Assembly: GCA_013368375.1 (NCBI GenBank)
Contig: JAACJP010000019.1
Coordinates: 558,001-622,000 of the forward strand
Length of the DNA stretch: 64,000 nucleotides
Source: Tricholomella constricta
Lineage: Eukaryota; Basidiomycota; Agaricomycetes; Agaricales; Lyophyllaceae
Direction of reading: 5' to 3'
Below are positions 25,898-59,118 of this stretch, piece by piece. The notes below the pieces were generated by a model, which did not search any database, was not told where the DNA came from, and saw only the letters and a program-made list of their open reading frames with translations. The position numbers and the translations under genes were made by a program. Position 1 is the first letter of the stretch. Each line of letters begins with the position of its first letter.

Positions 25898-27877
25898 ATG
25901 TCGTCCTTCAATCTCGATATCGCGGCCCCCGCCTCCGTTGACCCTAGCACGATTTTGCGCGATTCCGAGTTGGCGCAGCTGTCCGTCGAAGATCGGGCGC
26001 GTGTGGCGTTCCTTGGCGTACCCCGACCCGTTTCCCCGACGTCCTCTCTTCCTGGGATCGTCACACTTGTCGATGGGAGTGTCGGGGCGGTCCCCGAATC
26101 TTCTCCCGCACCTCCCTCAATTCCCGATCATTGGCTGGTCATCCGTCTGCCGGTTCGATCTCGACAGATCCGGCGTCCTCGTTCCTCCACTCCAGAGGTT
26201 GAGTTCGAACCGGCCAGCGATCCTGTGTCACGTCCGGCGGCGACTTCGTTGTCCTGGGGGTCCCTTTTGACGGATGAGCTGTTGGCGGAGATCCTGCGTA
26301 CCGCTGTGCGGGTTCCCCCTTCCTTGGCGTGGTGTGAGACGCATGCACCGGTAAGTGTTGCCCTTTTTCTGCGATCGATTGTTGATTCCATTTTGGGGTC
26401 TTCGTTAGTGTGATCGTTGTCGGGAGCGTCGGCTGTCCTGTCGATTTCAGGAGGTCCGTCTTCGCGGGACCCTGCCCTGTGTCGACTGCCGTGCGGCACA
26501 CTCCCTGTGTTCGCTTTCGTTGGAGCATGGCCTAGAAGTGGCCGCTAGGCAGTTGGGGATTCCCTTGGCGTGGTTGCGCTCTCGTGCGGAAGGCTTTGCT
26601 TTCTCTCGCACTGGCGTCGCGATGTCCTTTACCAGTATCCGTCGCGCCTTGCGTTTACCGCTCCCCCCTCCTCTTCCTGTTGTTTCCCCATCCCCTGAAG
26701 GGTCCGGTGCTGTTCCTCCTCCTCGTGCTCCCCCGCCTCGCGCCTTTTTTCGCGGTACGCGAGGCCAGGGTCGAAAGTCTGTGCCTGTTGGCCGTAGGGG
26801 TGCGCGCTTGTCCGTTCAGGAGGTGCGCTCTTCGCCTATCCCTGGCCCTTCTCCCTCCTCCTCCCGCGATAGTTCGGTTTCGCTTGTCCCCGTTCGTCGT
26901 TCTGGGCCCATTGTGCGCACCGAGTCTCCGGATTCCCCCATCGCCGGCCCTTCGGAGCCTCTCTTTTTAAAAGGGTCATCCTCCTCAGGCTCTTCTTCAC
27001 CCGTTTTGCCCTCTTCCCCCCCCGCCATGTTGATTTCGACCCCCCCTGCTGCTCCGGTTCCCTCCCCTCCCTCGTCTGAGGAGTACCTCCGTCTTCAACG
27101 TCTCTATGACCAGGAGGTCGCGCGCGCGCAGGCCCTCTCTGTTCAAGTCGAGCTTCTCCGGGTCGAGGGTCAACGTGCCAAGTCCCATCTTCGTGGCGTA
27201 TTGGCCGACTTCACCGATGAACGTGAGCGTTTCCTTCATCTGCAGGCGCAGACTTCGGAGGTCGTAGACGTCGATCGTGACGCGGAGGTTGAGGATCTTC
27301 GGATGGAGGTGTCGGTTCTTCAGGATGAGGTTGCTGGTTTGCAGGGGCACGTTGTCCACCTTCAGGAGGTTAGGGATCATTGGCGTGGTCACGCCTTGGA
27401 CCTCCGTACTCGCGTTGACGGTGAGTTTCGATTCCCTTCATTTTCTCCTTCTTGTTTCTAAGACTTTTCGTAGCCCTCGACCTTGCGCGTACCGCCTTCG
27501 CGTCCGATATGTATATCGCGGATGGTGCTTTGCGTCGCGCCCTCGTCGAGTTGGAGGCGTCGCCAGTCCGAAGTATCATCGATGGCGCCCACAAGATTCT
27601 TGAGCGGCACTCGCTCCTGGAGCTGTTCCGCCCCCCCGTCGATCCCGAGTCGCCGTTCCCCGCGTTCGAGCATTTCCTTGCTCTTCATCGCCCTTCTCTT
27701 ACTCGCGAAGGTGCCTTGGCGGAGTTCGTATCTCAGTCTCAGTTGATCGCCGACGACGAGCAGGACATTGCGTCGATGCGTCCCCTGGAGATAGGGTTGG
27801 TTGGGGAGGTGGGGGGTGATCGTGAGGGCGGTTCTTCTTCCAGTGCGGGTCCCTCTAAGCGTCGTCGCATCGAGTAG
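25898..27877 (+). CDS. Antisense gene of G1a: Zn2Cys6-like, coiled-coil protein (about 622 aa)
   Basis: Exons 25898-26350, 26409-27420 and 27474-27877, with GTAAGT and GTGAGT donors and TTAG and GTAG acceptors. The second exon opens exactly with the Cys motif CDRC-x6-C-x12-C-x2-C-x6-C, which fits Zn2Cys6 binuclear-cluster spacing. A Ser/Pro-rich region follows, then coiled coil ('LYDQEVARAQALSVQVELL', 'EDLRMEVSVLQDEVAGLQ'). The C-terminal domain contains 'MYIADGALRRALVELEASPV' and ends 'GPSKRRRIE', a possible nuclear signal. It reads opposite to pol and converges on it. It is conserved in G1b, including introns. It is probably nuclear and nucleic-acid binding; the role in the element's life is unknown. 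I recognise no named family beyond the Cys pattern. Confidence 0.82.
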
Positions 27878-28111
27878 TCGGTCCCTTCTGCAGCGTCTTG
27901 GCCTGCGTTTATTTTTTTTGCTGAATATTTACAGTCCGGAGTTCGTTCGTTTGTTTTTTTTTTTTTTTTTTTTTTCTTTTTTCTTGATATTTTTTCTTTG
28001 TGTGATATTGTTGCGCTGGTGGTTGAATACGTATAGTAGAGTTTAGTCTTGGGAAAATTTGCATAATTTTCATGATGTGTTGGTGTGCGTGAGTGTTCGT
28101 CGAGTGTCTTT
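27878..28111. terminator. Convergent 3' region with a 22-T run (G1a)
   Basis: Lies between the stop of the plus-strand antisense gene and the stop of minus-strand pol. T22 at 27954-27975. G1b has a T39 run at the same place (59197-59235). Probably a shared 3'-end/polyadenylation zone. Confidence 0.45.
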
Positions 28112-31100
28112 TTAGATTGTGGGGTCCCGTGGTTTTCTTGGGAATAGTCGGTGGAATTTAAGGGCCATGTCCTTTGCTCCTTCTATATTCTCCGCTGGTT
28201 CCCAGGTATCGTCTTCGGGGCCGTACCCTTCCCATCGTACCAAGTAGAGGACGTGTTTCCCTCGTGTTCGGGAATCCAGGATCTGTCCCACTTCGTAGTG
28301 TTCTTCGCCCTCGACTTCGATCGTCTGCGGAGGTGGTTTTGATCGTCCGGGGAAATTCTCGTGCTCGTGCTTCTCGAGCAACTTGACGTGGAAGACATTG
28401 TGAATCCCTTTCAGTGTCGGAGGTAGTTCCAGTCGATACGCGTGGCTGGAGATCTTCTGCAGGATTTTGAAGGGGCCCAGTCTCCGGTGGTCCAGCTTTT
28501 TGGAGGGGCGTTTCGTTTTGATGTTCCGGCAGTCGAGCCATACTTCCGTTCCTACGGCCCAGTCTGGTGTAGGGTCCCGTTTCTTATCTGCAAATCGTTT
28601 GTAAGCTTCATTTGCGATCTCTATTTCTTTGCGGAGGTAGTCCTGGAGGGTCCGGAGGTCTACGGCTACCTCCTGGGCTTCTTTCGCCGGTATATCTTTT
28701 ATAGAGATTGTCAAGCGGGGGTGATAGCCCTTGTTCGCGAAGAAAGGGGAAACTCCCGTGGTCGAATGGGTCGTATTGTTGTACGTGAATTCCGCCAGAG
28801 GGAGCTGAATTCGCCAGTTGGTCTGGAGATAGTTCACGTACATCCGGAGGTATTGTTCCAGTGTCTGATTTACTCGTTCCGTCTGGCCGTCGGTCTCCGG
28901 GTGATACGCGGTCGAGAGATTTGATTTGATGTCCAGGGCTTTACATAGCGAGCTCCAGAAACGGGAGACGAAGAGGGTGCCTCTGTCCGATATGATGTCG
29001 TCGGGCAGTCCGTGCTTGGAGAAGACATGTTCCAAGAATAATTGAGCGAGTTCCTTTGCTGTGTCCGTTGTGTGACAGGGTATGAAGATGCCCTGCTTGG
29101 TGAGGCGGCATACTACGACTAGTATGGCGTCGTACCCATCCGATTCCGGTAATTCTACAATGTGGTCCATGGATATGGAGGCCCACGCCCTTCGTCCAAT
29201 CTGGAGTGGTTTCAATAGTCCGTATGGGCTATGGCGTGGGACCTTCGCTCTTTTACAGGTATAACAGCTTCGGACGTATCGAGTGACCTCCTTCCTTAAT
29301 CCGGGCCAGAAATAAGTCCTCATGATGAGTTGTGTGGTCTTTCTGATCCCTGGATGTCCGCGCAGTTTGTGGTCGTGATGTTGCTGTAGGATGTCGAGGC
29401 GTAATCTGTAATGGTCCGGTACGTAGATTCTTCCGTCGCGAAAGAGTAGTTTGCCATCCTCGGATAGGGAGAACGCGGAGGTCTCATCTCCGGGTTTGGG
29501 TGCGTGTCTCTCGAAGAATTCGTCTCGGGGTGTGTTCCGGATGTTGTTTAGTAGGAGCTCCTCGTTCAGTATTAGGGCCGCGTTCAATCGTTCGGGAGGT
29601 ATGATGATGCGGTTGTTGAACGAATTATGATCCTGTTCGAACCCTTTCTTGGGATACACGTCTGGCCGTCGCGTGAGGGCATCTGGTTTCGCTCCTAATC
29701 TTCCGGGTCTGTAGTTTATTTGGAAGTCGAAGTTCGCCAGGCATTCCGACCATCGTGCTTGTCTGCGACTGAGTTGCTTGGTCGTAGAGAAATACTGTAG
29801 GTTATTGTGGTCGGAGTACACTTGAATGCGGTGGGGAGATCCCTCTAGGTAGGCCCTCCATTGCTTAAACGCTTCCACGATTGCTAGGAGCTCCTTATCA
29901 TAGATGTCGTAGTTGAGCTCCGCGTCTATCATAGTTCTCGCGTAGAAGGCGACAGGACGTAAGTCTTGTGATGTCTCGTCAAATTGGGAGATGATCCCCG
30001 CTATGGCGAAGTCGGAAGCGTCGCACTCTAATATCACCGGTAGTTGAGGATCGAAGTGTCGTAGGATGGGTGCGGAGGAGAATGCTTTCTTCAATAGTTC
30101 GAAGACTCCTTCGCATTCGGAATCCCATTTCCAGGTTGTGTCCTTTTGCGTGAGTTTGTTTAACCTCTTCGTTATGCCCGAGTAATTGTCGATAAACCGC
30201 CGATAGAAGTTTGCAAAGCCTAGGAAAGATTGGAGTTCCTTGACCTTCGTCGGTCTAGACCACTTCCGGATCGCGTCGACTTTTCCTGGATCCATTTTTA
30301 CTCCGCCGGGGGATACGATGACGCCTAGGTATTCGATCTCCGTAGTGTGAAACGTGCATTTCTCCGGTTTTGCATGAAGGTTGTGTTTCCGGAGCCTCTC
30401 GAGGACCTTCCGAACGTGTCCGTGATGTTCCTCTAAGGTCTCCGAGAAAACCAGAATGTCGTCGAGGTAGATCACTACGAACACGTCGTTCATGTCGTGG
30501 AAGATGTCGTTCATGAAGTGTTGGAATGTCGCGGGTGAGTTTGTCATGCCGAAAGGCATTACCAGGTATTCAAAAAGTCCATAACGAGTGCGGAAGGCTG
30601 TCTTCCATTCGTGTCCCGGAGCTATGCGGACGTTGTTGTAGCCCACTCGGAGGTCGATCTTCGAGTATACTTTCGCTTTTTGAAGTCGGTCTATGAGGTC
30701 TCCGATCAGAGGTAGAGGGTAACGGTTCTTCTTGGTGATCCGATTTAATCCTCTATAGTCCACGCATAGCCGGAGTGATCCGTCCTTCTTCTTTGCGAAT
30801 AGTACCGGAGCTCCCGCTGACGAACTCGAAGGTCGGATGAACCCTTTTCCGAGCATCTCGTCGATGTAATCCTTCAATGCTTTCAACTCCAGTTTGGACA
30901 TGTTGTATATCTTTCCGAAGGGAGGGGTAGTGTTTTCGTCGAGTTCCACTGTGTGATCGTAGGGTCGGTGTGGGGGGATGGTTTTCGCTTCGCCCGCTGA
31001 GAATACGTCTTCGAAGTCCCTGTACTCCGGAGGTACGACTTCCTCGAAGATTTCCCTTTCTGTCTTTGGTTGCTTGGGTTCATCGTCGGAGGTGTTATTG

Positions 31101-32616
31101 GCATGGAGGTGTTCTTCCTTTTCGGTGGGGGAGATGTGTAGTTGGAACGCTGTGGCTCCGTCCCTGATGAGGTTCGCGAATGGCGCCGCTCCGATCAGGC
31201 GGATGTTTTGTGTTTCGACATCCTCTTCTCCCTCTCCGGTTTTGTCTTCGGCCTCCGTTTCCGGGTTGGTTTCCTCTTCTTCCTGTGTTTCTGTCGTTGG
31301 GGACGTTGCGGATTTCCGTTTGGGGTGGGGTTTGAATTTGGACCTCGGAACGTTTGGAGGGAAGTAGTTCGGTGGGGGTGGTTTTCGGGTGCGTTTCCGT
31401 CCCGTTATCTCCTCTGGTGACTCGGTTGTCGGTGTTGGTACTTCCTCTTGGGGTTCATTGGTGTTTGGGCGAGTGTCTTCCTCCTTCATGTTATCGCTGG
31501 AGGTGTCGTTCTGATCGTTGTCGTCGTCCAGGAGGTCCCTGAGGAGGGGTTGTTTTTCCGAAAGGGGGTTGGCTGGTTTCGGAGCTTCGACGTCTTCCTC
31601 CTCCTCAAGGGTCACGGTTCTCCATTGCGTCTTCTGGGAAAGCGATATCGCGGCTAGTCCTGCCCCTTGTTCCATGGTCATGGACATTTCCCGCCAGTCG
31701 ATGTCCGGATTTGCTTCCCGTAACCAAGGTAATCCAAGCACTAGTGGCGTGGCCGGGTGTAACTGTGTTATGAGGAGGTCGACCTTATACTCTAGTCCGT
31801 TCTCAAGTTTGATTGTTTCGGGACTATGGTGTGAAATGGCTCCACCTCCGCTGGGGTTTCCGTCGAACAGTTGTAGGGTCATGGGGCTGGCGAGAGGTTC
31901 CGGTTTCGTACACGAGGATTGTGCTATGAAATTTCCCGCCGCTCCACTATCGATAAGTGCCCGTAGTCGCGTTGAGGATCCTTCTAACTGTACTTCGATC
32001 GTGAAGGAGCGAGCTGACCGCGAGGGTAAGCGTTGATCTCCTGTGCCTGTTGTCGTTGGGACGACTTCCTTTTTCCTTCGGAGGTCCGGTAGTGATCCTT
32101 CAATTTTGCCGTTTGACCCCCTTCGTAGCGTGATGCAGAGGTCTTTCCAGTTTATTCGGGGGTTGACCTCCTTCAACCAGGATAGTCCCAACACTATCGC
32201 AGCTGTCTCGTGGAGTTTCGTAAGGAGGAACCTTATCCTCTGCGTGGTGCCGTCACTGAATTTGACGTCGTTGGTGGTATAGTGTGTGATTTTGCCCGAT
32301 GCGGAGAGTTCTCCATCAAATAGGCAAAGGTTTATTGGGGGTTTGAGCTCCTCAAGGTGGAGCCCGCGTGATGTCGCCATGTCGGAGTCCATGAAGTTGT
32401 CGGTAGCTCCGCTGTCGATAAGCGTATTTTCGGGTTTTTCTCCTCCTCCGTTTGGCGTGAGGTGTATTAAGAATGCCAGGGACGAGTGGGAGGAGAGTGT
32501 TACAGTGCGGGTGTCCGTTGTCGATAGTGCCGTTGCGCGTAGTTTAGTGTCAAGGCCCGGTTTCAGCTCTTCGCGATTCAGAGCCCGGGTAAGTCCTGAA
32601 TCGCCCCCGCGTTTCC
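28112..32616 (-). CDS. pol: G1a Pol: double protease, reverse transcriptase, RNase H, integrase, chromodomain
   Basis: Continuous minus-strand frame reached from gag by -1 shift at G GGA AAC (32611-32617); the first ATG is only at 32392. Order: a first retropepsin-like domain ('LIDSGATDNF' ... 'VLGLSWLKEVNPRINW') and a second ('LIDSGAAGNF' ... 'VLGLPWLREANPDIDW'). Reverse transcriptase follows with YLDD at 30458-30469, then RNase H ('LECDASDFAIAGIISQ') and the HHCC zinc region ('HPGIRKTTQ', 'CYTCKRAK'). The integrase core has 'SMDHI', 'ISDRGTLF' and 'DGQTERVNQ'. The chromodomain is at the C-terminus ('LVRWEGYGPEDDTWEPAENI'). Over 1,426 residues from the first ATG. It copies RNA into DNA and inserts it; the chromodomain may guide integration. 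No lesion is seen, and the duplicated protease is unusual. Confidence 0.95.
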
Positions 32617-35442
32617 CTCTTCTGTCTTGTGATGGAATTCGAAGATGTCGTCGCCGATGAGGTAGGTGGCTCTGCCCATGGCGTTTGCTGTTGGGCAGTC
32701 GCGCATCCAGTGTTCCAGGTCACCGCATAGGATGCAGGCCTTGTCTCGAATTCGTTGTTGCTTTACGTCTTCATCGATCTTCACCCAGGGGCGCGTTGAC
32801 TTCTTGAATCCGAAGTTGTTGGCTTGTAGTGCCTCTTCGTCATCCCATGCGATTTCTTGGTCTTGCGCCTTACCTTCCTTACCTGAGTCCGGGTCCTGAT
32901 CGTGACTTTCGGTGTTCAAGCGTGCGTTCCTGTTCCCCTGAGCCGTTTGCGGCGTCGTGCGGCTTGCGGGTCCGGCCGAAGGTCCCATCGGAGGTCGTGC
33001 GGAGGTGTTGGAGGTGTTCGCATTATTCGCCCAGAGGGGTTTGTAGGACTCTGGATTTTCTATGCGATGTTCCCAGTACCTCCGGTCGATTTGGGTGACC
33101 AGATCTCGGTAACCTTCGTAGGTTTCGGGGCTTGGTGCGATGGCCAGGACGTTAAGGATTCGTTGGGGGAGCGCTTTCCGGAGTGTGAACTGTAGTGCTA
33201 CCCAGTTCCAGCCTGTTTCGTACGCTTCTTGTTCGAACTTGATGATGAATGCTGTGAACTTTTCCCATTCCTTCATTTTCAGTCGCAAAATGTTGTTCTC
33301 GGCTTCCACTCTCGAGTTCGGTATTCCGAAGCGTGATCCTAATTCGTGTACGAATCCTTCCCAATTCGTGAACATTGGGTGTTGGGGGTTGTACGTGAGT
33401 TGCAGCCGAAAGTAGTCCATAGCTCCGTCCTTTAAGTAGGAGCTCGCGAATGACACCTTCAGGTGATCCTGTTCGTAGGTGATCGCCTTGGCTTGAAACG
33501 TTACTAGGCATTCCGTGACGAAGGTTTTCCATCTCCTCGGTTCTTTTCCAGTGAAGGGGTCCGGTTTCCTGATGTCGATTTTCGATTCCAGGTTTAGGAG
33601 GTGTCGGTACTGTTCCGGGGTCAGGTTTTGGTTTGGGCCTAAGAGCTGTTGCGGTGGAGGTGGGGGTCGTTGAGGGTTTGCGAATTGGCCTCCTCCCGGA
33701 TTTCCGGGTGGGCCTCCTCCTCCTCCTCCTCCGTGGCCTCCTCCTCCCCCTCCGGGACCTCCGGGGCCTCCCGGGCCTCCTGGTCCTTGTGGTGGTCCGT
33801 ATCCTCCGTGACCTCCCCCTCCTCCAGGACCTCCTGTTCCTCCGGGGCTGTTTCCCCAATAACCTCCTCCTCCCCCTCCTGGTCCTCCGGGGCCGTTTCC
33901 CCATTGAGTTCCTCTCGGGGTAGGTGGTCCCGAAGATCCCGGAGGTGGTTGGGGCTGTGGAGGTGGTCCGTTGTACTGGGGGTTCGGTCGTCCGCCGGGT
34001 ATGGGTGGGGCTGGTCCGGGGTTGTATCCAGTTCTGTATTGTTCGAACTGGGGGAATTGTTGTTGGGTCCCTTGCCTTCCGTCGAGGATGTTTACGTTTT
34101 GACCGGGGCCGGGGTCCGCTCCGATTCCACGTCGTTCTCTTGGGGAGATTGGGCGTGGGCCTTGTGGTGACCTCCTGTTCTGACTTGCCAGATGAGGTGG
34201 TGTTTGGCGCCAGTCTTCTCGTGCCCTAGGGGGTGCTCCCTCTCTTCTTTCCGAGTTTTCTTCGCGTAGTTCGTAGCTGTGGGCGTACGACAGTGGCGTT
34301 GGGATTCCCCGTTCCGACGGAGGTAGGGGGATGTTCTCAGGTTCCCTCGGAGGTACTCCTTCTTGGTTTGCGAAGGTCCCCTGTGGGCCCTGAAAACCCG
34401 AATTTGGCCTGGAAAACGGTCCTTCGACAGGGGGGTTCTCTTCGGGGATTCTTTGTAAGTTGTGGGCTCCCCAGAACCCGAACGTCGGAGCTCTTCGAGC
34501 GTCTGCCCCTGGTGTGACGGTGGGTTCGAACCCTTCTTGGCTGGGGGGAGCGTTCCCTTGGTTCATCCTCCTGAGTAGAGCCGAAGCTGTCTGCGTATTG
34601 ACCGTGCTTGTCGCTCGTGGAGGTTCTTCGAATCTAGTTTCGATTCTGGAGGGAACGGGCTCCTGAATTGGCATGTGGAAGGAACGTCCCGCGCTTTGGG
34701 GGTCGGAGAATCTTCTTCCCTCGTTGGACGTCTGGATTTCTCCAGCCAGAGCGCGTAACCTTCTTTCGTTTCCCCCCATTTGTAGCAACACCGTCAGTTG
34801 TGGGGGTAATCGATGGGCTTCGTGCAGTTGCATGGTCGACAACACGAGGTTGGCCCATTGTTCCGGTGTTCGGGGTTGATGATCCATCCCCATGGTTTCG
34901 ACTAGGAGCTCGTGCGCTTGTCGTGAAAACTCTTCTCGCATCATGCGGAGTTCGTAGAGTATCCTTTCGTGGTCTGAACCGTGTAGAAAGGGGTTTTGTT
35001 GACGAGCGAACTGTCCCTGTCCCTCCTCTCGTGCCCTATCCCTCCTCTGGAACATCTCCGGGTGCCTCAACCTTTCGTAGTACGATCCGGGAGTCTGGTT
35101 ACTTGAAAGCGGAGGTCCGGAGGTCGTTGCGGATGGTGGTAAGGGGGGATAGTTGGGGGTGGCGAGTTGGTAAGAGGGGTTGAATACGTTTGAGGGGGTT
35201 CGGGGTAGGGGTCGTCGTGGGTCCTGACTGACTGAGGAAAAATCCCCCTCATGTTGGCCAGGTTGGAAGATCTGGTGTTCCAACCTGGACCTGTTGGATC
35301 CGAAAGTCCCTTGCATCGGAGGTCCTCTTGAGGCAGGGGAGGTTTCGAAGGGTGGTGGTGAAGGTCTCCTTTGAGTGAAGGAGGGACCTTCGAAGTTTTG
35401 ATAGCGGATGGTTGTGTTAGGCTCCACTATCGTCGAGGACAT
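32578..35442 (-). CDS. gag: G1a Gag (954 aa)
   Basis: Structural protein forming the virus-like particle. Long N-terminal region rich in Pro, Arg, Gln and Glu, then a Gly/Pro-rich low-complexity block around 33670-33910. The capsid-like domain follows ('DHLKVSFASSYLKDGAMDYF', 'WEGFVHELGSRFG'). A zinc knuckle 'CILCGDLEHWMRDC' (CX2CX4HX4C) lies near the C-terminus. It ends 'IQDLPGL' 33 bases after the frameshift heptamer. The first codon used here is 35442; a shorter product from a later ATG cannot be excluded. Downstream pol overlaps in the -1 frame. Confidence 0.9.
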   Translation of the reverse strand: MSSTIVEPNTTIRYQNFEGPSFTQRRPSPPPFETSPASRGPPMQGTFGSNRSRLEHQIFQPGQHEGDFSSVSQDPRRPLPRTPSNVFNPSYQLATPNYPPLPPSATTSGPPLSSNQTPGSYYERLRHPEMFQRRDRAREEGQGQFARQQNPFLHGSDHERILYELRMMREEFSRQAHELLVETMGMDHQPRTPEQWANLVLSTMQLHEAHRLPPQLTVLLQMGGNERRLRALAGEIQTSNEGRRFSDPQSAGRSFHMPIQEPVPSRIETRFEEPPRATSTVNTQTASALLRRMNQGNAPPSQEGFEPTVTPGADARRAPTFGFWGAHNLQRIPEENPPVEGPFSRPNSGFQGPQGTFANQEGVPPREPENIPLPPSERGIPTPLSYAHSYELREENSERREGAPPRAREDWRQTPPHLASQNRRSPQGPRPISPRERRGIGADPGPGQNVNILDGRQGTQQQFPQFEQYRTGYNPGPAPPIPGGRPNPQYNGPPPQPQPPPGSSGPPTPRGTQWGNGPGGPGGGGGGYWGNSPGGTGGPGGGGGHGGYGPPQGPGGPGGPGGPGGGGGGHGGGGGGGPPGNPGGGQFANPQRPPPPPQQLLGPNQNLTPEQYRHLLNLESKIDIRKPDPFTGKEPRRWKTFVTECLVTFQAKAITYEQDHLKVSFASSYLKDGAMDYFRLQLTYNPQHPMFTNWEGFVHELGSRFGIPNSRVEAENNILRLKMKEWEKFTAFIIKFEQEAYETGWNWVALQFTLRKALPQRILNVLAIAPSPETYEGYRDLVTQIDRRYWEHRIENPESYKPLWANNANTSNTSARPPMGPSAGPASRTTPQTAQGNRNARLNTESHDQDPDSGKEGKAQDQEIAWDDEEALQANNFGFKKSTRPWVKIDEDVKQQRIRDKACILCGDLEHWMRDCPTANAMGRATYLIGDDIFEFHHKTEEGNAGAIQDLPGL
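32611..32617 (-). promoter_or_regulatory. -1 frameshift heptamer G GGA AAC (G1a)
   Basis: In gag phase the sequence reads G GGA AAC, a classical X XXY YYZ slippery site, about 11 codons before the gag stop. The -1 frame from here is open into pol and includes the first protease motif. Conserved at 63835-63841 in G1b. Confidence 0.75.
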
Positions 35443-35471: not shown

Positions 35472-35818
35472 TGTTAGGACCTGTGTAGCACGCCGGTTAC
35501 AGAGTTATTCTGGAACCACCGAAGCGGACAGGCCTGACGTCCGTCAAGGAAGACGGCCTACGAAGGAGTATTCGGAGGTCGTGAGCGTTGACGGAGGTGT
35601 TCACCGGGGCTAATTCGAACGAACGAGCTCAAGTGATACGGGTGTGAAGCCAAATAGATTGAGAGAGAGAGAGAGAAACGAGAACGAGAATCGAGAACTA
35701 GTCTTAACAATAGGTAATATCGAGGTAAGGAGTCTGAAAAGAAGTGGTGCCATCATATATACGGTGGACGTGCGTGGGAAAGCGTAAGTGATTGCGAGTT
35801 TTAGGGGCGGTCGTGACA
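35472..35818 (-). repeat. G1a LTR (5' LTR with respect to gag-pol)
   Basis: 347 bp, TG...CA ends. Contains the TATA-like box at 35755-35761 and the segment complementary to the primer-binding site at 35715-35726. Followed by the second GATCC copy (35819-35823). Confidence 0.93.
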
Positions 35819-37320: not shown

Positions 37321-38364
37321 TGATAGAGCTAGAAGGCCTGTAGGTGCTGCGCACAACAACAAAACAACTAACAACTATGGGGGGCGAGAAATGTTAAAAG
37401 TTCCCAAACACGCGAGTGTGCAGGGCTTGTAAGGGTTGTTTGACGAAGGTAAGAGACGATCCGACTCGTAGCCAGTCGAACCGACAACAACGCGACGGGG
37501 GTGATGGTACGCGACGTTCCCGAGTGGAACGGGTCGGCGACGCGACTTTGGATGTCGGCCGTGCGACAACGAGACGAACGAGGTTAATATGGAGAACTCA
37601 CGGGTTCGGGCGACGAGTACGAGGCGACAGAGACGGCAGTTACGAGATTTACGACAGTGGCGATGATTTATACGACGAGGACGGTGCAGAGACGACAGAG
37701 ACGACGGTTTCGAGCTATTCACTCTGAGTGTGAGGGAAAATACGGGCTGTAATTCACTGGGGGAGCAGGTAATACATGGGTACGTTTTTATACTATACGA
37801 CCGACTCGCCTCGCGCGAGCCGGCGAAGCAGGTGTTTTACTGGTTTATTGGGAGAAGCGCCGCCAAGCTTGGTACCGCGCGACGCTTTTTAGAGAGTGTG
37901 GCGCTCTTTGGCTCGGCAAAGGGGGCTTTTGATCGGCTCGAGGCGTCGGGTCGGATGTATGATCGGTGGTGGCTTTGCGATCGGTAGTGGCTCTTGGGTG
38001 CGGAACTCCGTAGTACGGCCGGATCCTTCCTGCGACTGGCTGGGCAACGGCGTTTCCTAGGGTCATTTCAAATCGGGTTTGGTTGTCGCCGGGTGGAGAC
38101 CTTGGCATCCGAACGTGCGCGGTCGTTGACAGGTTATACGGTGTTCCGTGCTCCGTGCGCCCAGAGAGGAGAACTGGCGTTTCAAGTTACTTTGTTTCTT
38201 GGTCGGTGCGTCGGTCGTTTGGTCGTATTGCCGGTCGGTCGGTCGTATTGTCAGTCGGTCGGTTTAGCGCTTTGGTCGCATTCGGGACCGCGTTCGTCGT
38301 GGCGCAGCGGTTGATGTCCGTATTATGGGCAGGTTCGGTGTACAGCGCGGGACGGTGCTCATCA
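37321..38364 (-). repeat. Element B LTR (3' with respect to gag-pol)
   Basis: 1044 bp, TGATAGAGC...GGTGCTCATCA. Holds GTCGGTCG-rich microsatellite-like sequence near 38190-38270. Confidence 0.95.
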
Positions 38365-38365
38365 T

Positions 38366-38402
38366 CTCCTCCTTACTTGAAATACCGACTGTCCCCAGTC
38401 GG
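38366..38402. promoter_or_regulatory. Polypurine tract and CCG...CGG palindrome (module 1)
   Basis: CTCCTCCTTACTTG (38366-38379; minus strand CAAGTAAGGAGGAG) abuts the LTR and fits the polypurine tract. CCGACTG-TCCC-CAGTCGG follows at 38385-38402, a perfect 7-bp-arm hairpin that is also CCG-N12-CGG. The same module recurs before the other family-1 antisense genes. Confidence 0.75.
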
Positions 38403-39767: not shown

Positions 39768-40164
39768 CTTCCGGTCTGGCGTGTTGTCCGGTCGGGTTGC
39801 GCTCGTTGTCGGTCGCGTATTCTGTATATACCCGGTTTTGTCGTGCGGGCCCTAAAATTGGGTCGTTCTTTATAATCTGGGCTTTTCGTTTTAAGTGGCG
39901 CATGTCAGTTCGCCGTGTTGGTCGGTTTTATCATCGGCGGTGTCGGTTACTGGCGTCGGCCGCCGCTCGACCCGCAGGTCATGTCTCCTCCTTACTTGAA
40001 AAGCCGACTGCCCTCAGTCGGTCCGGGGTCCGGTTGAGGAAATTCTAGAACCCGGCGCGTGTGTGGCGTGAGATGGCGGTGGCGGTGCCACCGAATTTGA
40101 CGGCGCGTCCTGGCTTGTTTAAAGTGACGGCTTCCTGTTCGGTTCCTGTTGCCTTTCAACCACC
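39768..40164. promoter_or_regulatory. Spacer with second polypurine/palindrome module
   Basis: About 400 bases between the two antisense genes. Carries CTCCTCCTTACTTG at 39983-39996 and CCGACTG-CCCT-CAGTCGG at 40002-40019, a repeat of module 1 although no LTR is adjacent. Probably the promoter of antisense gene 2. Confidence 0.65.
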
Positions 40165-46123: not shown

Positions 46124-48406
46124 AAAATTTACGTCGGTTTTGGGGCGGCGACGTTGTCCGCGCGCGAAGGTCGGTATCGCGATGACCTCTCGAGTGTTCG
46201 GGTCGGTGATGGTTATGATCGTATCGTCGGCGGATCTCGTTTTCACGTTAGAGCAAGTAAGTACGTCGAACGGGCGGCCGAGGAGTATATCGTATGCGGG
46301 GTTGCGAATGACGTGCATTTGGAGGTAGAGTGTGACCTCTCCTATCGTACAAGGTACGTTTCGTGCTAGACCGAGCGACGGGTCGGTTGTTCCGTTCGCT
46401 GATTGCATCTGTAGCACTATAGTTGGGTCGTATTTGACCCCTAGTCCATGGCAAACTTCTTCCGACATGGCTATGATCTGGCACCCGCTGTCGACGATGC
46501 TTTCTATCTGTTCTCTTGCGTCGACCATTATCATGATCGATCTGAGTGCATGCGATTCCATTGCGACGATCAGTCGGTCCGGATGCTCGCCAGGTAGTAG
46601 TGTCTGGTAATACGTGTCGTAGATGTCGCCGGTGACTAGCGCTCCGGGCGGTGGCGTCGCGTTGTCGCTGTTGGATTCGCAAGGTAGTGCGTCGAGTTCC
46701 TCAATGAACGCCGACGTGGGGACTTCTTGGTATACCGTTGTGAGGTTGCCGGCGACGATGCGCTTCGGGGTATTAGCTTCCCTAAACTTTCCGCGAACCT
46801 CTGGCGCTACCCCGCAGAGTTCTCGAACTGTGACCGGTATGGTGGCGTCGAGTGCGCGTTCGAATAGAGTCGTTGATTTGGTCGGATCTGTAATGGGCGC
46901 TTGTGTGCGATACGCGCTGTCGGCTTTCGCCTTCTCCGTGGCGGCTAAGTTTCGCGTGGTAGGAGGGATGTATCGGTTCTCGGGAATGTTAGAAAAAGGG
47001 TGTACTGGAGTCTGGTCGCGGGCAGTGCCTGTGGCGTCGGTCTTGCTACTGGGGGTCAGAGGTATGTTGGACGGTGGCGGGGGAGCCTTGGCTTGGCCTT
47101 TCGTCGCGCCCGAGACGGGCTGCGACGCGGGCGCTGACTTGTTGACTGGTGCGATCCTTGGTTGGTCGGCGTCTTGAACGGTTTCGACCGTGACGGGTCG
47201 CTTTTGCGGTGCGCGGCTAATAAGTTCTACGCCGTCGAACACCTCTTTCCTTGCGCGCAGGGTGTTGAGTTCTCGTTCTAACACGATCATGCGATCCTCG
47301 ATTTTTAGGTCATGGTCGGTGACGTCGTTAAACTGTAGTATTTCCAACATCATGCTTTCGGTCGGGTTCGCGTTCGCTGATAGCTGTCCTGTCGCCATTT
47401 GGCCGGGGTTGCGTCTGTGCCACTCGTCTAACTTGTCTTTTATGTATCGACCTGGGGTTCCCGCCGGTATGCGCGCGCCGCTTGGCAGACCTATTTTGTT
47501 GTCGTCGGTTCGTCGGCAGCGTCCTTCGGTCGCGTATGTTTGATGTATGGGACAGTTAGGAATATAATGTCCTTCACCACCGCAGAAGTGGCAGTTGTCA
47601 TTAGGTGACTGATTCGGTCGGCCGCCGTCGCTTCCTTTGTCTTGTCCTAAGCGTTGGATATGTTGTTCCAACAGGTTTATTCTTTCGTAGAGCTCTTCCA
47701 ACTTGAGGGGCTGTCCCGTGCTAGGCGACTTGGTCGCGCCCGTTAACGACCCGCTTGGCGCGATCGTAATTTGTGGGGGCGCGCCCGATGGCGCTTCCTG
47801 TCGTTGGCCGGCGTTTGTTCCGTGGAGGATATGTTCAGCTGCAGCGCGAACGGTTTCTGTGGCGTAGGGGTCGTCGGGATGGTGGTTCGGATTTAGGATC
47901 TCGAGCCTGCGATGGATCTTTGACCATAGATCTGACTGGAACGCGCGACGGAATTGGCGGTCGCGTTCGTTTATCGAAAGTCGGTTTTTGCTGACAAGGA
48001 ACTGGGTAACAGAAAGGAACTGTCGGTAATATTCCCCGAGGTCGCTATTCGACTGGATCCCGAGTCGGTGTCGTTCCCTGATCAGGTAGTCGAGGTCGGC
48101 CATTGAATACTTTCTTTCTTCGCTTGCGCCTCGGTAAAGCGCCATTATCGCTTTTCGCCAATCGTCGTATGTGGTGCCGACCGCGAACTCGTCAAGTTGC
48201 TCCCACAGATCCGCGGTATCGATGTCGGTGTATCGCGTAGTGTGCGTTTTCTGCTCTTGTTCATCTACGACGTTACACTCGATGAAGAGATGATTTAAGT
48301 CCGAGAAATATCGGCGCAGTTCACGCGCACGTTCGGGCACGAACGTCGGTGCCGAGCTTTGTCCGCGTGCGGGCATCGGCTTTATAATGATTGGTGGTTG
48401 TGCCAT
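46103..48406 (-). CDS. gag: Element B Gag-protease (767 aa)
   Basis: Starts 'MAQPPIIIKPMP', the first possible start after an upstream in-frame TAA. Capsid-like region ('WRKAIMALY', 'YYRQFLSVTQFLVSKNRLS'), coiled-coil-like 'LYERINLLEQHIQRL', knuckle 'CHFCGGEGHYIPNC', then an aspartic protease ('IVDSGCQI', 'DILLGRPF'). It ends 'RILSRK'. The heptamer A AAU UUU (46124-46130) lies just before the stop, and pol overlaps in the -1 frame. A protease in the gag frame followed by a frameshift to reverse transcriptase is less common in Ty3 elements than protease in pol. Intact, unlike the same gene in element A. Confidence 0.92.
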   Translation of the reverse strand: MAQPPIIIKPMPARGQSSAPTFVPERARELRRYFSDLNHLFIECNVVDEQEQKTHTTRYTDIDTADLWEQLDEFAVGTTYDDWRKAIMALYRGASEERKYSMADLDYLIRERHRLGIQSNSDLGEYYRQFLSVTQFLVSKNRLSINERDRQFRRAFQSDLWSKIHRRLEILNPNHHPDDPYATETVRAAAEHILHGTNAGQRQEAPSGAPPQITIAPSGSLTGATKSPSTGQPLKLEELYERINLLEQHIQRLGQDKGSDGGRPNQSPNDNCHFCGGEGHYIPNCPIHQTYATEGRCRRTDDNKIGLPSGARIPAGTPGRYIKDKLDEWHRRNPGQMATGQLSANANPTESMMLEILQFNDVTDHDLKIEDRMIVLERELNTLRARKEVFDGVELISRAPQKRPVTVETVQDADQPRIAPVNKSAPASQPVSGATKGQAKAPPPPSNIPLTPSSKTDATGTARDQTPVHPFSNIPENRYIPPTTRNLAATEKAKADSAYRTQAPITDPTKSTTLFERALDATIPVTVRELCGVAPEVRGKFREANTPKRIVAGNLTTVYQEVPTSAFIEELDALPCESNSDNATPPPGALVTGDIYDTYYQTLLPGEHPDRLIVAMESHALRSIMIMVDAREQIESIVDSGCQIIAMSEEVCHGLGVKYDPTIVLQMQSANGTTDPSLGLARNVPCTIGEVTLYLQMHVIRNPAYDILLGRPFDVLTCSNVKTRSADDTIITITDPNTREVIAIPTFARGQRRRPKTDVNFRILSRK
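46124..46130 (-). promoter_or_regulatory. -1 frameshift heptamer A AAU UUU (B)
   Basis: In gag codon phase on the minus strand. The -1 frame has no stop from here through the start of pol. Confidence 0.7.
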
Positions 48407-48892: not shown

Positions 48893-49936
48893 TGATAGAG
48901 CTAGAAGGCCTGTAGGTGCTGCGCACAACAACAAAACAACTAACAACTATGGGGGGCGAGAAATGTTAAAAGTTCCCAAACACGCGAGTGTGCAGGGCTT
49001 GTAAGGGTTGTTTGACGAAGGTAAGAGACGATCCGACTCGTAGCCAGTCGAACCGACAACAACGCGACGGGGGTGATGGTACGCGACGTTCCCGAGTGGA
49101 ACGGGTCGGCGACGCGACTTTGGATGTCGGCCGTGCGACAACGAGACGAACGAGGTTAATATGGAGAACTCACGGGTTCGGGCGACGAGTACGAGGCGAC
49201 AGAGACGGCAGTTACGAGATTTACGACAGTGGCGATGATTTATACGACGAGGACGGTGCAGAGACGACAGAGACGACGGTTTCGAGCTATTCACTCTGAG
49301 TGTGAGGGAAAATACGGGCTGTAATTCACTGGGGGAGCAGGTAATACATGGGTACGTTTTTATACTATACGACCGACTCGCCTCGCGCGAGCCGGCGAAG
49401 CAGGTGTTTTACTGGTTTATTGGGAGAAGCGCCGCCAAGCTTGGTACCGCGCGACGCTTTTTAGAGAGTGTGGCGCTCTTTGGCTCGGCAAAGGGGGCTT
49501 TTGATCGGCTCGAGGCGTCGGGTCGGATGTATGATCGGTGGTGGCTTTGCGATCGGTAGTGGCTCTTGGGTGCGGAACTCCGTGGTACGGCCGGATCCTT
49601 CCTGCGACTGGCTGGGCAACGGCGTTTCCTAGGGTCATTTCAAATCGGGTTTGGTTGTCGCCGGGTGGAGACCTTGGCATCCGAACGTGCGCGGTCGTTG
49701 ACAGGTTATACGGCGTTCCGTGCTCCGTGCGCCCAGAGAGGAGAACTGGCGTTTCAAGTTACTTTGTTTCTTGGTCGGTGCGTCGGTCGTTTGGTCGTAT
49801 TGCCGGTCGGTCGGTCGTATTGTCAGTCGGTCGGTTTAGCGCTTTGGTCGCATTCGGGACCGCGTTCGTCGTGGCGCAGCGGTTGATGTCCGTATTATGG
49901 GCAGGTTCGGTGTACAGCGCGGGACGGTGCTCATCA
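48893..49936 (-). repeat. Element B LTR (5' with respect to gag-pol)
   Basis: 1044 bp, direct repeat of 37321-38364 with two differences noticed. Followed by the second GCGC copy. Confidence 0.95.
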
Positions 49937-54756: not shown

Positions 54757-54793
54757 CTCCTCCTTACTTGAATTACCGACTGTCCCCAGTCGG
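54757..54793. promoter_or_regulatory. Polypurine tract and CCG...CGG palindrome (element C, module 1)
   Basis: CTCCTCCTTACTTG at 54757-54770 and CCGACTG-TCCC-CAGTCGG at 54776-54793, identical to B module 1 though the adjoining LTR has diverged. Confidence 0.7.
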
Positions 54794-54924: not shown

Positions 54925-55938
54925 ATGTCTCGCCCTCCTACCGATTTTGGGAAGGTCGTCTGGAACCTCGACGATGACTGGGTCGCCTGGCGTTCGCTCC
55001 CTATCGACACTGGTCGTGAAGAGTGTACTGCTCTCATCGAGAACATCCTGGATGGTATCGAAGCGTTACGTAGCCAGGACGCGGCGTCTGAGCGGTGGGA
55101 GTGGCCCAATGAGGACGCTGCGTTTACCGACCTATGGGCGATCATTTCGCACGACGCTGAGTGGTCCGCTCGCTTTAGAGATTGGAGTCCCGAAGTACGT
55201 CTAGGCGCTTGTTTCGCTGTTCCATCGTGGTCCGATCGACGTCCTTATTTCGTTCTTTTTTAGGACGATTATACGCGCCGCCGTCGTGAGCGGCGACTCC
55301 GTTTGGCGGATGCTGCAGATAAGGCGGTACACGAGGAAACTGTCCGCGTTGCGACTTCACCTATTGTTCGTAAGCGTAGGCGAAGCCTCGTTGATGACGA
55401 GAGCCAGGAGTCGGGGGTTCCAGAGGGTTTGTGTGATGGGTATGCGGAGGCCGAGGCACTCTCTGGAGAGGTATCCTCGGTCCGGCGTCGCGACCTGGTG
55501 GCTATCGCTCGCCGTCTAGCAGTGGAACAAGTCGCCGATTTCCCGTCGGCGGTCTCCGACATCCCTAGTGCTGAAGACTCGCATGAGTCTAATTCTGTGC
55601 AACCCTTGTCGGCTGTGTCGCGCTTCGGTCTCTCCGACGTCGATCGTGCCCTGTCCACCCGTCGGTTCCTTCTACAGTCTTTGATTCGGGAATCCCATGT
55701 CCTTGAGTCGCGGCGAGAGGTCCTACGATTGTCCGTCCGACAGCTCTATCAGCAGGTTGTGGCGACGTCGACCGCCTTAGACGTACTCCGAGCGCGCCAT
55801 ATCGAGTTAGTCGGTGAAGGTTTAGGGGACGGCCTGGAGAGCGGGTTTGAAGATCGTGGTCGGGATGGTAGACTCGGAGACGATGGTGACGAAGGCGACA
55901 GTGTCGCAGAGGGTGGGGACGTTGGCGACAGTGTCTGA
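54925..55938 (+). CDS. Antisense gene 1 of element C (about 314 aa, no Cys motif)
   Basis: Exons 54925-55194 and 55264-55938 (intron GTACGT...TTTTTTAG, 69 nt). The N-terminal domain begins 'MSRPPTDFGKVVWNLDDDW' and ends 'AEWSARFRDWSPE'. Exon 2 starts 'DDYTRRRRERRLRLADAADK' with a basic 'RKRRRS'. It then goes directly to the C-terminal 'FGLSDVDRAL' and 'SRREVLRLSVRQLYQQVVA'. The exon with the Zn2Cys6-like motif present in both B genes is missing. The C-terminus ends in a Gly/Asp-rich stretch inside a 110-bp tandem duplication. Possibly a dominant-negative or regulatory variant, or simply a deletion derivative. Confidence 0.72.
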
Positions 55939-56068
55939 TGCCCTGGGGCGTCGACTCTGAAGATCGTGGTCGGGATGGTAGACTCGGAGACGATGGTGAT
56001 GAAGGCGACAGTGTCGCAGAGGGTGGGGACGTTGGCGACAGTGTCTGATGCCCTGGGGCGTCGACTCT
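55849..56068 (+). repeat. 110-bp tandem duplication at the 3' end of antisense gene 1 (C)
   Basis: 55849-55958 and 55959-56068 differ at one noticed base (GTGACG versus GTGATG). The first unit contains the stop codon, so the second is untranslated. Confidence 0.88.
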
Positions 56069-56237
56069 TCTTAGTTGAGTCGCCAATACCTACGTATCTT
56101 GTGTGTGTCGGTCTCGAAGTTGCGTCCGACTGTTATTGTCGGTCGGTTGGTGTCGCGCTCTCTACCTTTGGGGATAATGTGTGATCGGTGCACGTGGCTT
56201 TGATGGTCCATGTGGGCGCCATGTGGGCGCCACGTCT

Positions 56238-56274
56238 CTCCTCCTTACTTGGCATGCTGACTGTCCCCAGTCGG
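56238..56274. promoter_or_regulatory. Polypurine/palindrome module 2 (element C)
   Basis: CTCCTCCTTACTTG at 56238-56251, then CTGACTG-TCCC-CAGTCGG at 56257-56274 (one arm base changed). It precedes antisense gene 2 with no LTR nearby. Confidence 0.65.
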
Positions 56275-56379
56275 CCCGTGGTCTGGGCTGGACGCGTGTG
56301 TGGCGTGGGTGCGTGGCAGTGCCAAAGATTTGGCGTCGCGTCTGTTGGTTCGACTTCTCCCTTTTGTTATTTGCACTCT

Positions 56380-56499
56380 ATGTCGCGCCCTCTGGAGACT
56401 CTGGCGGCCTTGAAGGAGGACTGGCTACGCTGGTTAGCGCTTCCCGACGACCTCCACCCGGACGAACGCGTCCCCGTTCTGGAGGACTTGCAAACCGGT
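56380..56499 (+). pseudogene. Antisense gene 2 of element C, cut by G1b
   Basis: Starts 'MSRPLETLAALKEDWLRW', homologous to the N-terminal domain of the other family-1 antisense genes. Interrupted after 'VLEDLQTG' by the LTR of G1b. The rest must lie beyond the window. Confidence 0.8.
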
Positions 56500-56858
56500 T
56501 GTTAGGACTCTGTGTAGCACGCCGGTTACAGAAGTGTTCTGGAACCACCGAAGCGGACAGGCCTGACGTTCGTTGAGGAAGACGGCCTTCGAATAGGATA
56601 TCCGGAGGTCGTGAGCGTCGACGAAGGCGTTCACGAGAGCGTTTACGAGAACGTGTGAAGCTCAAGAGATACGAGTGAAAGAAACAGAATAGATTGAGAG
56701 TGGAAAAGAAACCGAGAACAGAGACTAGTCGTAACAATAAGCAATATCGAGGTAAGGTGTCAAAGAAGAAAGTGGTGTCATATATGTACCGCGGACGTGC
56801 GTGGGAAAGCGTAGAAGGTGGGTAGTTTAGGGGTGGTCGATTAGGGACGGTCATGACA
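56500..56858 (-). repeat. G1b LTR
   Basis: TGTTAGGACTC...CATGACA. Homologous to the 347-bp LTR of G1a with small indels. The self-priming segment reads CAATATCGAGGT (one mismatch to G1a), with a TATATA about 30 bases away. Confidence 0.9.
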
Positions 56859-56978
56859 TTACCCCCTCTTCAAGCGTCGAGCCACTGAGACGCGGGGCAG
56901 CTTTTCGAATGCAAGGAGAGTAAAGTTTTTTTTTGTGTTTTTGTTCTCGCGTGTGCGCGGTCACGTGAGGGGCACGTG
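56859..56978. promoter_or_regulatory. Polypurine tract, inverted repeat and E-box pair of G1b
   Basis: TTACCCCCTCTTCAAG (purine-rich on minus), GCGTC-N10-GACGC at 56874-56893, and CACGTG-AGGGG-CACGTG at 56962-56978, as in G1a. DNA between these blocks is less conserved. Confidence 0.65.
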
Positions 56979-57082
56979 CGGTCTAGATTGTTTGTGGGTC
57001 CTTGTGGGTGTTTTGAGGATCTCGGAGACCGAATAGAGAAAATTCCAGTTGTTTTTTCCTCTTCCAATCCTCACTTCTCTTC

Positions 57083-59118
57083 ATGTCGAGGTCCCACCAA
57101 GATTCCGCGTCCTCTGCCTCCGCTGCCCGAATTTTACACGATGAGGAATTGGCGCGCTTGTCCGCTGAAGATCGAGCGCGCGTCGCGTTCTTGGGCGTGC
57201 CCCAACCTGCTTCTCCCACCTCCTCTCTGCCTGAGATCGTCACTCTTATCGATGGGGGCGTTTCGACGATCCCTGACTCTTCCCCTGCTCCCTCTACGCC
57301 CCCCGTCCCTCGTCTCACCATCCGTCTTCCTAACCGATCTCGACAAATCCGGCGTCCTTGTTCCGTCACTCCTGAGGCCGAGTTTGAACTGGCTAGTGAT
57401 CCTGTATCGCGTCCGGCGGCCACCTCCTTATCCTGGGGGTCGTTGTTGACGGATGCGATTTTGGCGGAGGTGTTGCGTACCGCTGTGCGGGTTCCTCCCT
57501 CCTTGGCATGGTGTGAGGCGCATGCGCCGGTAAGTGTCGCCCTCCTTCTGTGATCGAGTCGATCGCTTTAGCTGATTCCGTTTTGGGTTCTTCGTTAGTG
57601 CGATCGTTGTCGGGGGCGTCAGCAGCCTTGTCAATTTCAGGAGGTCCGTCTTCGCGGGACCCTGCCTTGTGTTGATTGTCGTGCGGCGCACTCCTTGTGC
57701 TCGCTTTCGCTCGATCATGGCCTAGAAGTGGCGGCTAGGCAGTTGGGCATCCCCTTGGCGTGGCTTCAATCCCGTGTCGAAGGGTTCACTTTTTCTCGTA
57801 CTGGTGTCGCGATGTCCTTCGACGCCATCCGTCGCGTCTTGCGTGTGGCGCCGCCTTCTTTTCGAAACTCCCTTGTCTCCGTGCCCTCTGCGGAGGTCCT
57901 TTCCCTGACTTCGTCTTCTGGTGATGAGGCCGCCATGAGCGTTAGCCGTGTTTCGCCTCCACGCGCCATTTTTCGAGGTACCCGAGGGCAGGGTCGAAAA
58001 TTAGTGTCTGTTAGTCGTGGGGGTGGGCGATCTGGTCTGCAGGGGCTGGGGAGGCGGCCTTCGTCCGTGTCTCGTTCCCCTTCCCTTTCTCCCGCGGCGC
58101 CGACTTCTCCTCTTTTGGCCCCTCCTTTGTCGGGCGCTACGCGCGCGGTGTCCCCCGATACTCCCCCTGTCGAGCCTCTCTTTTTAAAGGGCTCGTCTGT
58201 TTCGAATTCTCCAACGCCAGCTCTTCCAGCTCTACAGTCTTGCCCTCCCTCCATGTTGTTGTCGTCCCCCCTCGCTACCCCTGCTCCTTCTGTTCCTTCA
58301 CCGGAGGCGTTCCTCCGTCTCCAGCGTCTCTACGACCAGGAGGTCGCGCGTGCTCAGGCCCTTTCATCCCAGGTCGAGCGTCTCGAGGCCGAGGGTGAAC
58401 GCCACAAAGGTCGTTTTCACGGAGTCCTATCCCAACTCGCCGACGAGCGTGAACGTCTTCTTCATCTGCAGGCGCAGACATCGCGTGCCGTGGAGGTCGT
58501 CGATGTCGATCGTGACATTGAGGTCGAGGATCTGCGGATGCAGGTTGCGGGTTTTGAGGATGAGGTCGCTGGTTTACAGGGGCACGTTGTCCATTTGCAG
58601 GAGGTCCGGGACTTTTGGCGTGGTCATGCTTTGGACCTTCGCCTTCGCGTCGATGGTGAGTTCTCTTCCATTCCCTTTGTTTTTCTCTTTCCCTCTTTCT
58701 GAAAACTGTCCTAGCCCTTGACCTCACGCATACCGCCTTCGCGTCCGACATGTTCATCGCGGATGGTGCTCTGCGTCGCGCCCTCGTCGAGCTGGATGTG
58801 TCGCCAGTTCGAAGTATCATCGATGGCGCCCACAAGATTCTGGAGCGGCACTCGCTCCTTGAGCTTTTCCGTCCTCCTGTCGATCCCGAGGTTCCTTTCC
58901 CTGCGTTTGAGCACCTCCTTGCTCTTCACCGCGCCTCACTCACTCGTGAAGACGCTCTCGCCGAGTTCGTATCCCGGTCGCAGTTGATTGCCGATGACGA
59001 GCGGGATATCGCATCGATGCGTCCTCTGGAGGTAGGGTTGATTGGGGAGGTGGGGGTTGTGGGCGGGGAGGGTTCTTCTGCTAGTGCAGGTCCCTCTAAG
59101 CGTCGGCGCATTGAGTAG
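57083..59118 (+). CDS. Antisense gene of G1b: Zn2Cys6-like, coiled-coil protein (about 635 aa)
   Basis: Exons 57083-57529, 57599-58655 and 58715-59118, at the same intron positions and phases as in G1a. Exon 2 opens with CDRC-x6-C-x12-C-x2-C-x6-C. Ser/Pro-rich middle with 'EPLFLKGSS', then coiled coil ('LYDQEVARAQALSSQVERLE', 'EDLRMQVAGFEDEVAGLQ'). The conserved C-terminal domain has 'MFIADGALRRALVELDVSPV' and ends 'GPSKRRRIE'. Substitutions and small length changes occur mostly in the Ser/Pro linker. The two ends and the Cys block are well kept, suggesting selection on the protein. Confidence 0.82.

Follow-up and report, generated by a model that had tools for sequence, protein, structure and literature searches.

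What are the spliced genes that run against gag-pol in two retrotransposon families of Tricholomella constricta, both assigned to Ty3 in the initial annotation? The question is raised by a stretch of 64,000 nucleotides (hereafter the window; contig positions 558001-622000 of a genome of 44.09 Mb in 118 contigs), which holds the elements B, AC and D of family 1 and G1a and G1b of family 2. Dozens of copies of each family were found in the genome. Judged from the sequences of these copies, the antisense genes are a real class of accessory genes of the retrotransposons, spliced, protein-coding and under selection.

The limits of the long terminal repeats (LTRs) and the gene coordinates (Table) show that the antisense genes occupy the other strand from gag-pol, in the interval from pol to the 3' LTR, and stand tail to tail with pol. 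The LTR limits of G1a and B bear out this position, which had been proposed in the initial annotation, and the spliced models likewise agree with its three complete genes (G1a, G1b and B gene 1) and a fourth that carries the cysteine cluster (B gene 2). After splicing, the three complete genes are reading frames free of stops. B gene 2 is a broken copy, the frame of which is lost downstream of the cluster. Its first intron, which is in frame, was located by comparison with the copy L082, where gene 2 is fully open (308 amino acids upstream of the cluster and 251 positions from the cluster on, stop counted). All nine introns of the four genes are of the GT-AG type and 49-69 nt long. In B and in many other family-1 copies there are two antisense genes, which are paralogous and each of which stands behind the same palindrome.

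The cluster of six cysteines is spaced C-x2-C-x6-C-x12-C-x2-C-x6-C in G1a and G1b, with x8 in the middle in B genes 1 and 2. In all four genes, as had been claimed, a phase-0 intron ends directly before the codon of the first cysteine. When the residues of the G1a, G1b and B gene 1 proteins were shuffled, the pattern appeared in 0 of 20000 shuffles for each. The spacing fits that of the Zn2Cys6 class (C-x2-C-x6-C-x5/12-C-x2-C-x6/8-C); the wider PROSITE-style pattern is fitted by G1a and G1b and not by B gene 1. In Zn2Cys6 domains six cysteines hold two zinc ions, and the domains bind CGG half-sites. From the sequence, zinc binding by the cluster is likely.

For conservation in family 2, 44 records were modelled; three loci duplicate others, which leaves 41 distinct copies. 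The loci had been picked with a query that itself contains the cluster. The spliced open reading frame (ORF) is intact in 31 of the 41 copies, L078 included; seven are broken, and three are without a start codon by the scan. Intron 1 is GT-AG in every copy and intron 2 in 39, the exceptions being L035, which is cut short, and L078, in which the intron ends in AT. All six cysteines are present in 38 of the 38 copies that could be modelled, and L029 has a stop within the cluster. The lengths of intron 2 fall into all three classes modulo 3, and the frame of the joined exons is preserved. Since the splice sites are kept and the intron lengths drift out of frame, the protein needs splicing of the antisense transcript.

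The ratio of nonsynonymous to synonymous substitution (dN/dS) among eight family-2 representatives was 0.20-0.33 in those pairs, 25 of 28, that have dS > 0.4. By segment, nine such pairs gave 0.12-0.17 for exon 3, 0.10-0.28 for the cysteine region and looser values of 0.32-0.57 for the proline-rich middle. The presence of the gene beside pol was scored in the best 33 of 1555 pol candidates. The antisense gene accompanies 25 of these 33 copies, 22 of them with a tail-to-tail match among the matches listed. Two more of the 25, on C34 and C55, carry it in the clusterless form described below. The last, a copy on C35 first found by the family-2 leader box (see below), was read in sequence and contains both exon 1 and the exon with the cluster. 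In seven of the 33 the leader box alone was recorded, 2.34-2.35 kb from pol (C108 left out). Presence in most copies together with coding constraint, by which the aORF-3R class is recognized, is thus what we found in family 2.

Similar results were obtained for family 1. The cluster is present in gene 1 of all 28 copies modelled, out of 30 distinct copies. L060 and L062 gave no acceptor for intron 1, and three of the modelled copies are mis-anchored (L063), short (L061) or without a start (L064). The 26 usable records (25 distinct copies) were reduced to 12 representatives, which gave a dN/dS of 0.17-0.41 with a median of 0.26 (64 pairs, dS > 0.1). The initial annotation had named a dN/dS near 1 as evidence against its proposal; the measured ranges instead indicate purifying selection in both families. 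Third-position excess was seen in all 20 pairs counted. For gene 2, a query of 73 amino acids around the cluster found 167 matches, and 138 of the 150 listed span the cluster. Among these 138, 136 start one or two residues before the first cysteine. One D-type gene 2 (L084) has a variant cluster, CKRC...C, again right behind an intron.

The cluster is not universal. In gene 1 of D the frame is open, and the cluster and its intron are missing. D-type gene 1 comprises eight copies at 98-100% identity (D included) and nine at 59-66%; the copies, of which D alone was read in sequence, match over one unbroken stretch that leaves no room for a cluster. Family 2 has such a form as well, on C34 (L083, C34:455500-457900) and C55 (C55:187548-188735), in which the cluster and intron 1 are missing. 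It is a single open frame of 437 codons, 98% like the T. constricta protein P0002 on either side of the gap; of the two, L083 was read in sequence. Because they lie at two separate places, this variant may have moved or been duplicated. The expected conservation of the cysteines therefore stands for every copy modelled and fails for these clusterless variants, which occur in both families.

Is the cluster a genuine Zn2Cys6 domain? The initial annotation had called the proteins Zn2Cys6-like and transcription-factor-like. The cysteine spacing agrees with this, and the Pfam profile Zn_clus (PF00172, cut-off 21 bits) does not, as every protein scored was below the cut-off (P0002 15.5, G1a 11.1, G1b 8.4 and L082 gene 2 7.0 bits) and no Zn_clus match was listed for B gene 1. 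In the Zn_clus alignments the first half of the family-2 clusters lies on profile positions 13-34, and L082 gene 2 aligns in direct order. A search of solved structures with a cluster profile (E <= 10) gave seven distinct chains, six from fungal regulators (Leu3 twice, Lac9, Pho7, C27B12.11c and Ppr1; E 0.03-1.5) and a pheromone (E 3.7). In two alignments the first half of the antisense clusters resembles the second half of Leu3 and Lac9, and the second half resembles the first half of Leu3; Lac9 gave an additional, weaker match in direct order. The cluster sits in the middle of the protein. Fungal_trans and bZIP domains were absent among the Pfam matches of the antisense proteins, and no match to PF04195 (TRP28) was found up to E 10. 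AlphaFold2 (AF2) models predict long C-terminal helices, at residues 128-195 of the last exon of B gene 1 (predicted local distance difference test score, pLDDT, about 90 in the middle) and at residues 372-430 and 439-499 of P0002 (pLDDT about 67-75). The C terminus in family 2 reads SKRRRI(E/D) in seven of eight representatives and SKRCRID in the eighth. Basic residues lie between cysteines 2 and 3 in family 2, and few are found in the first cluster half of the B genes.

As to origin, the idea of one ancestral captured host gene found no support. The genome has 22 PF00172 places, all of them more than 10 kb away from the 140 antisense places, and host Zn2Cys6 genes were rejected as direct relatives on this ground; no host counterpart was seen among the matches listed. 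Beyond the cluster, no significant likeness between the proteins of the two families was detected in one profile comparison (hhalign E 0.08, only the cluster aligned), and the family-1 cluster query gave no family-2 place among the matches listed (150 of 167). The exon limit shared at the first cysteine suggests common ancestry of the genes of both families, short of proof. Outside T. constricta no protein relative was found in searches that took in at most 7990 candidates or in a further one that scored all 933 of its candidates, all of limited reach, and a scan of viral contigs showed no relative. The two homologues found (P0001 and P0002) are both from T. constricta. One of them is annotated as 'Zn(2)-C6 domain', and some proteins so named in mushroom annotations could be transposon genes. 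The public gene model of P0001 (D9615_009035) joins a piece of a Ty1/copia reverse transcriptase (RT) to the antisense gene, and owes its name in UniRef to the copia part.

The DNA in front of the genes was also examined. The family-1 palindrome, two of the four middle positions of which are C, occurs 109 times in exact form in the genome; its reversed control occurs 0 times. Among 100 listed palindromes, 67 precede listed starts (43 of gene 1 and 24 of gene 2); with 16 more at D-type and further gene-2 starts, 83 stand before antisense starts and 17 are unplaced. The distance to the start is 111-199 nt, with two exceptions at 441 among the matches listed. Next to it, CTCCTCCTTACTTG corresponds to the polypurine tract read on the complementary strand and is repeated before gene 2 and inside pol. 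A role of the palindrome as a promoter site only is weakened by this neighbor, and a role in reverse transcription is therefore a live rival. The palindrome hairpin folds with z scores of -2.0 and -1.8. A candidate central polypurine tract was noticed within family-1 pol, at 43926-43942 in B (one mismatch) and 51554-51570 in AC (two mismatches). In the window CGGTCGGTCGG occurs three times, always in family-1 LTRs (expected 0.11). Direct CGG repeats with a period of 4 bases (38232-38242, 49804-49814 and 22524-22534) are likewise confined, within the window, to family-1 LTRs. Exact copies of the family-2 leader box, CACGTGAGGGGCACGTG, number 93 in the genome (reversed control 0), and the box is kept between subfamilies; a listed antisense gene follows 0.3-1.4 kb downstream of 64 of the copies.

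We favor, with a confidence only a little above even, the explanation that these accessory genes encode a DNA-binding zinc-cluster regulator of the element. Transcription would start from an antisense-strand promoter that lies within the 3' LTR or immediately internal to it, and the host would splice the transcript. The introns could survive retrotransposition owing to the antisense orientation, because the genomic RNA that is copied holds only their complements, which the spliceosome ignores. By analogy with the viral protein HBZ, the product would act in the nucleus, bind DNA and control the element, and would combine a coiled coil with a binuclear zinc cluster. Candidate targets are, in family 1, the palindrome before each antisense gene and the CGG repeats of the LTR and, in family 2, the CACGTG box, and the clusterless variants of both families may serve as partners or modulators in place of DNA binders. 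One may go further and suppose that two distant Ty3 lineages each possess a switch of their own, in which a Zn2Cys6-type protein from a spliced antisense gene binds CGG repeats and a palindrome in the LTR and leader DNA of its own element and controls both the antisense and the sense promoter. The family-1 switch would have been duplicated together with polypurine tract and palindrome, and DNA-binding and non-binding forms may interact. This wider picture is tentative, and we are inclined to doubt it; if true, a motif of fungus-type regulators has been turned into a switch of mobile elements.

Several facts weigh against a DNA-binding regulator. In addition to the low Zn_clus scores, the matches to Zn2Cys6 structures are weak and partly swapped in the order of the halves, and the AF2 models of B gene 1 and P0002 are poor over the cluster, too weak there for a fold search. 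D gene 1 stays open without the cluster, and seven near-identical and nine distant copies are alike, so that the cluster is dispensable in some proteins; the clusterless family-2 genes on C34 and C55 also keep their frame open. These clusterless copies slightly lower our confidence. Constraint is stronger on pol, for which G1a and G1b gave dN 0.017, dS 0.29 and dN/dS 0.06, than on the antisense gene. The palindrome adjoins the polypurine tract, can be folded as a hairpin of the genomic RNA and may serve reverse transcription. It is thus conceivable that the zinc cluster contacts RNA or protein and not DNA, in an accessory factor for export, packaging or chaperoning of unspliced genomic RNA, comparable to the accessory proteins of retroviruses. 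Weak and partly swapped structure matches, the scarcity of basic residues in the first cluster half of the B genes, the long predicted coiled coils, the persistence of clusterless variants and the conserved hairpin beside the polypurine tract would suit such a factor. We nevertheless consider it unlikely in view of the six-cysteine spacing of the Zn2Cys6 class and, in family 2, the basic residues between cysteines 2 and 3 and the basic C terminus.

The remaining alternatives concern the existence and use of the protein itself. The antisense transcript might be the functional product, controlling the sense RNA by double-stranded RNA or interference with the ORF secondary, and non-coding antisense control is indeed among the alternatives put forward for plant elements in the account cited (PMC7264820). 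A dN/dS far below 1, frames kept across varying introns and retained cysteines make this very improbable here. More improbable still is a recently captured host gene carried as a passenger of no use to the element. Introns within the gene would be expected of it, and plant elements are described as transducing genes (PMC7264820); against it, no host counterpart was seen among the matches listed, and the gene accompanies most of the pol copies examined and is under purifying selection in subfamilies that have diverged. That the frames on the complementary strand are open by chance, for which only the general caution on antisense ORFs speaks, was rejected on the basis of the shuffles (0 of 20000 for three proteins), dN/dS and the conservation of splice sites, and has a virtually negligible probability.

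The elements of the window are nested. AC is one older element, into which G1a and B have inserted, so that its parts now lie at 22422-25328, 35819-37320 and 49937-53136; its 5' LTR is 22422-23488. When the flanks were joined across G1a and across B, the gapless alignments to element B covered 200 bases at 95.5% and 199 bases at 88.4%. The remnants of antisense genes that the initial annotation had assigned to two elements, A and C, have to be reassigned, since A and C are one element and the remnants given to C (54925-56500) belong to D. The genes to the right of 54700 are those of D, which has the same orientation as B and is interrupted by G1b at 56500. A tandem duplication of 110 bp, 99% identical, at 55848-56067 extends over the end of D gene 1. 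G1a is read on the minus strand and is flanked by a GATCC duplication, and B has GCGC on both sides. Family 2 has the domain order of Ty3 chromoviruses, protease-RT-RNase H-integrase-chromodomain (Pfam; protease matches under the cut-off). In the RT region of family 1 (44541-45503) the YIDD motif is present and no Pfam RVT_1 match was found; RNase H and the integrase zinc domain were found. Between G1a and G1b, dS is uneven, with 0.19 in RT-RNase H, 0.53 in the integrase and 0.69 in the antisense gene, which suggests recombination between subfamilies.

Table. Positions in the window of the antisense genes, their clusters and leader sequences, and the elements that carry them
Feature	Position	Strand	Remarks
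G1a antisense gene	25898..27877	+	exons 25898-26350, 26409-27420, 27474-27877; 622 aa
G1b antisense gene	57083..59118	+	exons 57083-57529, 57599-58655, 58715-59118; 635 aa
B antisense gene 1	38526..39767	+	exons 38526-38795, 38856-39050, 39102-39767; 376 aa
B antisense gene 2	40165..41993	+	exons 40165-40437, 40498-40806, 40856-41173, 41224 onward
D antisense gene 1	54925..55938	+	exon 1 starts at 54925, exon 2 ends at 55938; open frame without Cys cluster
D gene 2, start	56257..56499	+	palindrome at 56257-56274 (one change), ATG at 56380; truncated by G1b LTR at 56500
G1a Cys cluster	26409..26510	+	first codons of exon 2
G1b Cys cluster	57599..57700	+	first codons of exon 2
B gene 1 Cys cluster	39102..39191	+	at the start of exon 3
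B gene 2 Cys cluster	41224..41313	+	
Complement of B 3' polypurine tract	38366..38382	+	abuts LTR
Palindrome CCGACTG-N4-CAGTCGG	38385..38402	+	before B gene 1
Second polypurine-tract copy and palindrome	39985..40021	+	before B gene 2
D polypurine-tract complement and palindrome	54757..54793	+	
Family-2 leader box CACGTGAGGGGCACGTG	25775..25791	+	before G1a gene
Family-2 leader box	56962..56978	+	before G1b gene
G1a LTR, 3' in element sense	25329..25675	.	347 bp, 1 mismatch vs 35472-35818
G1a LTR, 5' in element sense	35472..35818	.	paired LTR limits
G1a pol	28112..32392	-	Pfam: protease, RT, RNase H, integrase, chromodomain
G1a gag ORF	32578..35442	-	weak gag and zinc-knuckle matches, all under Pfam cut-offs
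B LTR, 3' in element sense	37321..38364	.	1044 bp, 2 mismatches vs 48893-49936
B LTR, 5' in element sense	48893..49936	.	paired LTR limits
B pol	42360..45800	-	RNase H, integrase zinc domain (Pfam); YIDD motif
B gag with protease	46103..48406	-	Pfam
G1b LTR, 3' in element sense	56500..56858	.	
G1b pol	59336..63616	-	1426 aa; 1374/1427 positions (stop counted) identical to G1a

How do these genes compare with known systems? In the open-access literature we found no earlier Zn2Cys6-like, multi-intron antisense gene of a retrotransposon, and nothing on T. constricta together with retrotransposons. Antisense genes at this place are already known from plants and from Boty-like elements; the zinc-cluster, multi-intron form is apparently new, no earlier case having been found. 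The clusters share the cysteine spacing of fungal Zn2Cys6 proteins (PF00172; Leu3, Lac9, Ppr1 and Pho7) with weak profile matches, and differ from them in scoring under the Pfam cut-off, in the partly swapped half-domains, in the mid-protein position and in having no Fungal_trans match. HBZ of human T-cell leukemia virus type 1 (HTLV-1) is, in the account cited, an antisense gene that is spliced and has its promoter in the 3' LTR, the product of which is nuclear and regulates the provirus, and its relatives APH-2 to -4 are described as having no bZIP domain (PMC10186651). HBZ has a bZIP domain, whereas the T. constricta proteins have a zinc cluster and no bZIP match, and we claim no homology. 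The gene brtn of the Boty-like retrotransposons of Botrytis and Sclerotinia likewise lies antisense in an LTR element of fungi that has a chromodomain; the descriptions cited, with which the comparison was made, mention neither a zinc cluster nor introns (PMC7264820, PMC8365987, PMC4227169, PMC5987419).

The closest parallel in layout is provided by the antisense ORFs of plant Ty3 elements (Grande gene23, RIRE2, and Retand with TRP28), which the cited accounts place between pol and the 3' LTR in most copies and the products of which they suspect to be nuclear DNA-binding regulators (PMC7264820, PMC11963269). As far as these accounts go, place, orientation and presence in most copies are the same as in T. 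constricta. The antisense genes of LTR elements are a recognized class with an unexplained function. To this class the present case adds a regulator-type motif, strong evidence from sequence for splicing and selection, a single genome with many copies from several subfamilies, clusterless variants that occur naturally and nearby candidate targets, by which the function of such genes is made directly testable in mushroom genetics. The T. constricta genes are set apart from the plant ORFs by the Zn2Cys6-like cluster, two to three introns, the lack of TRP28 and the fungal host and, in family 1, by two paralogous antisense genes in a row.

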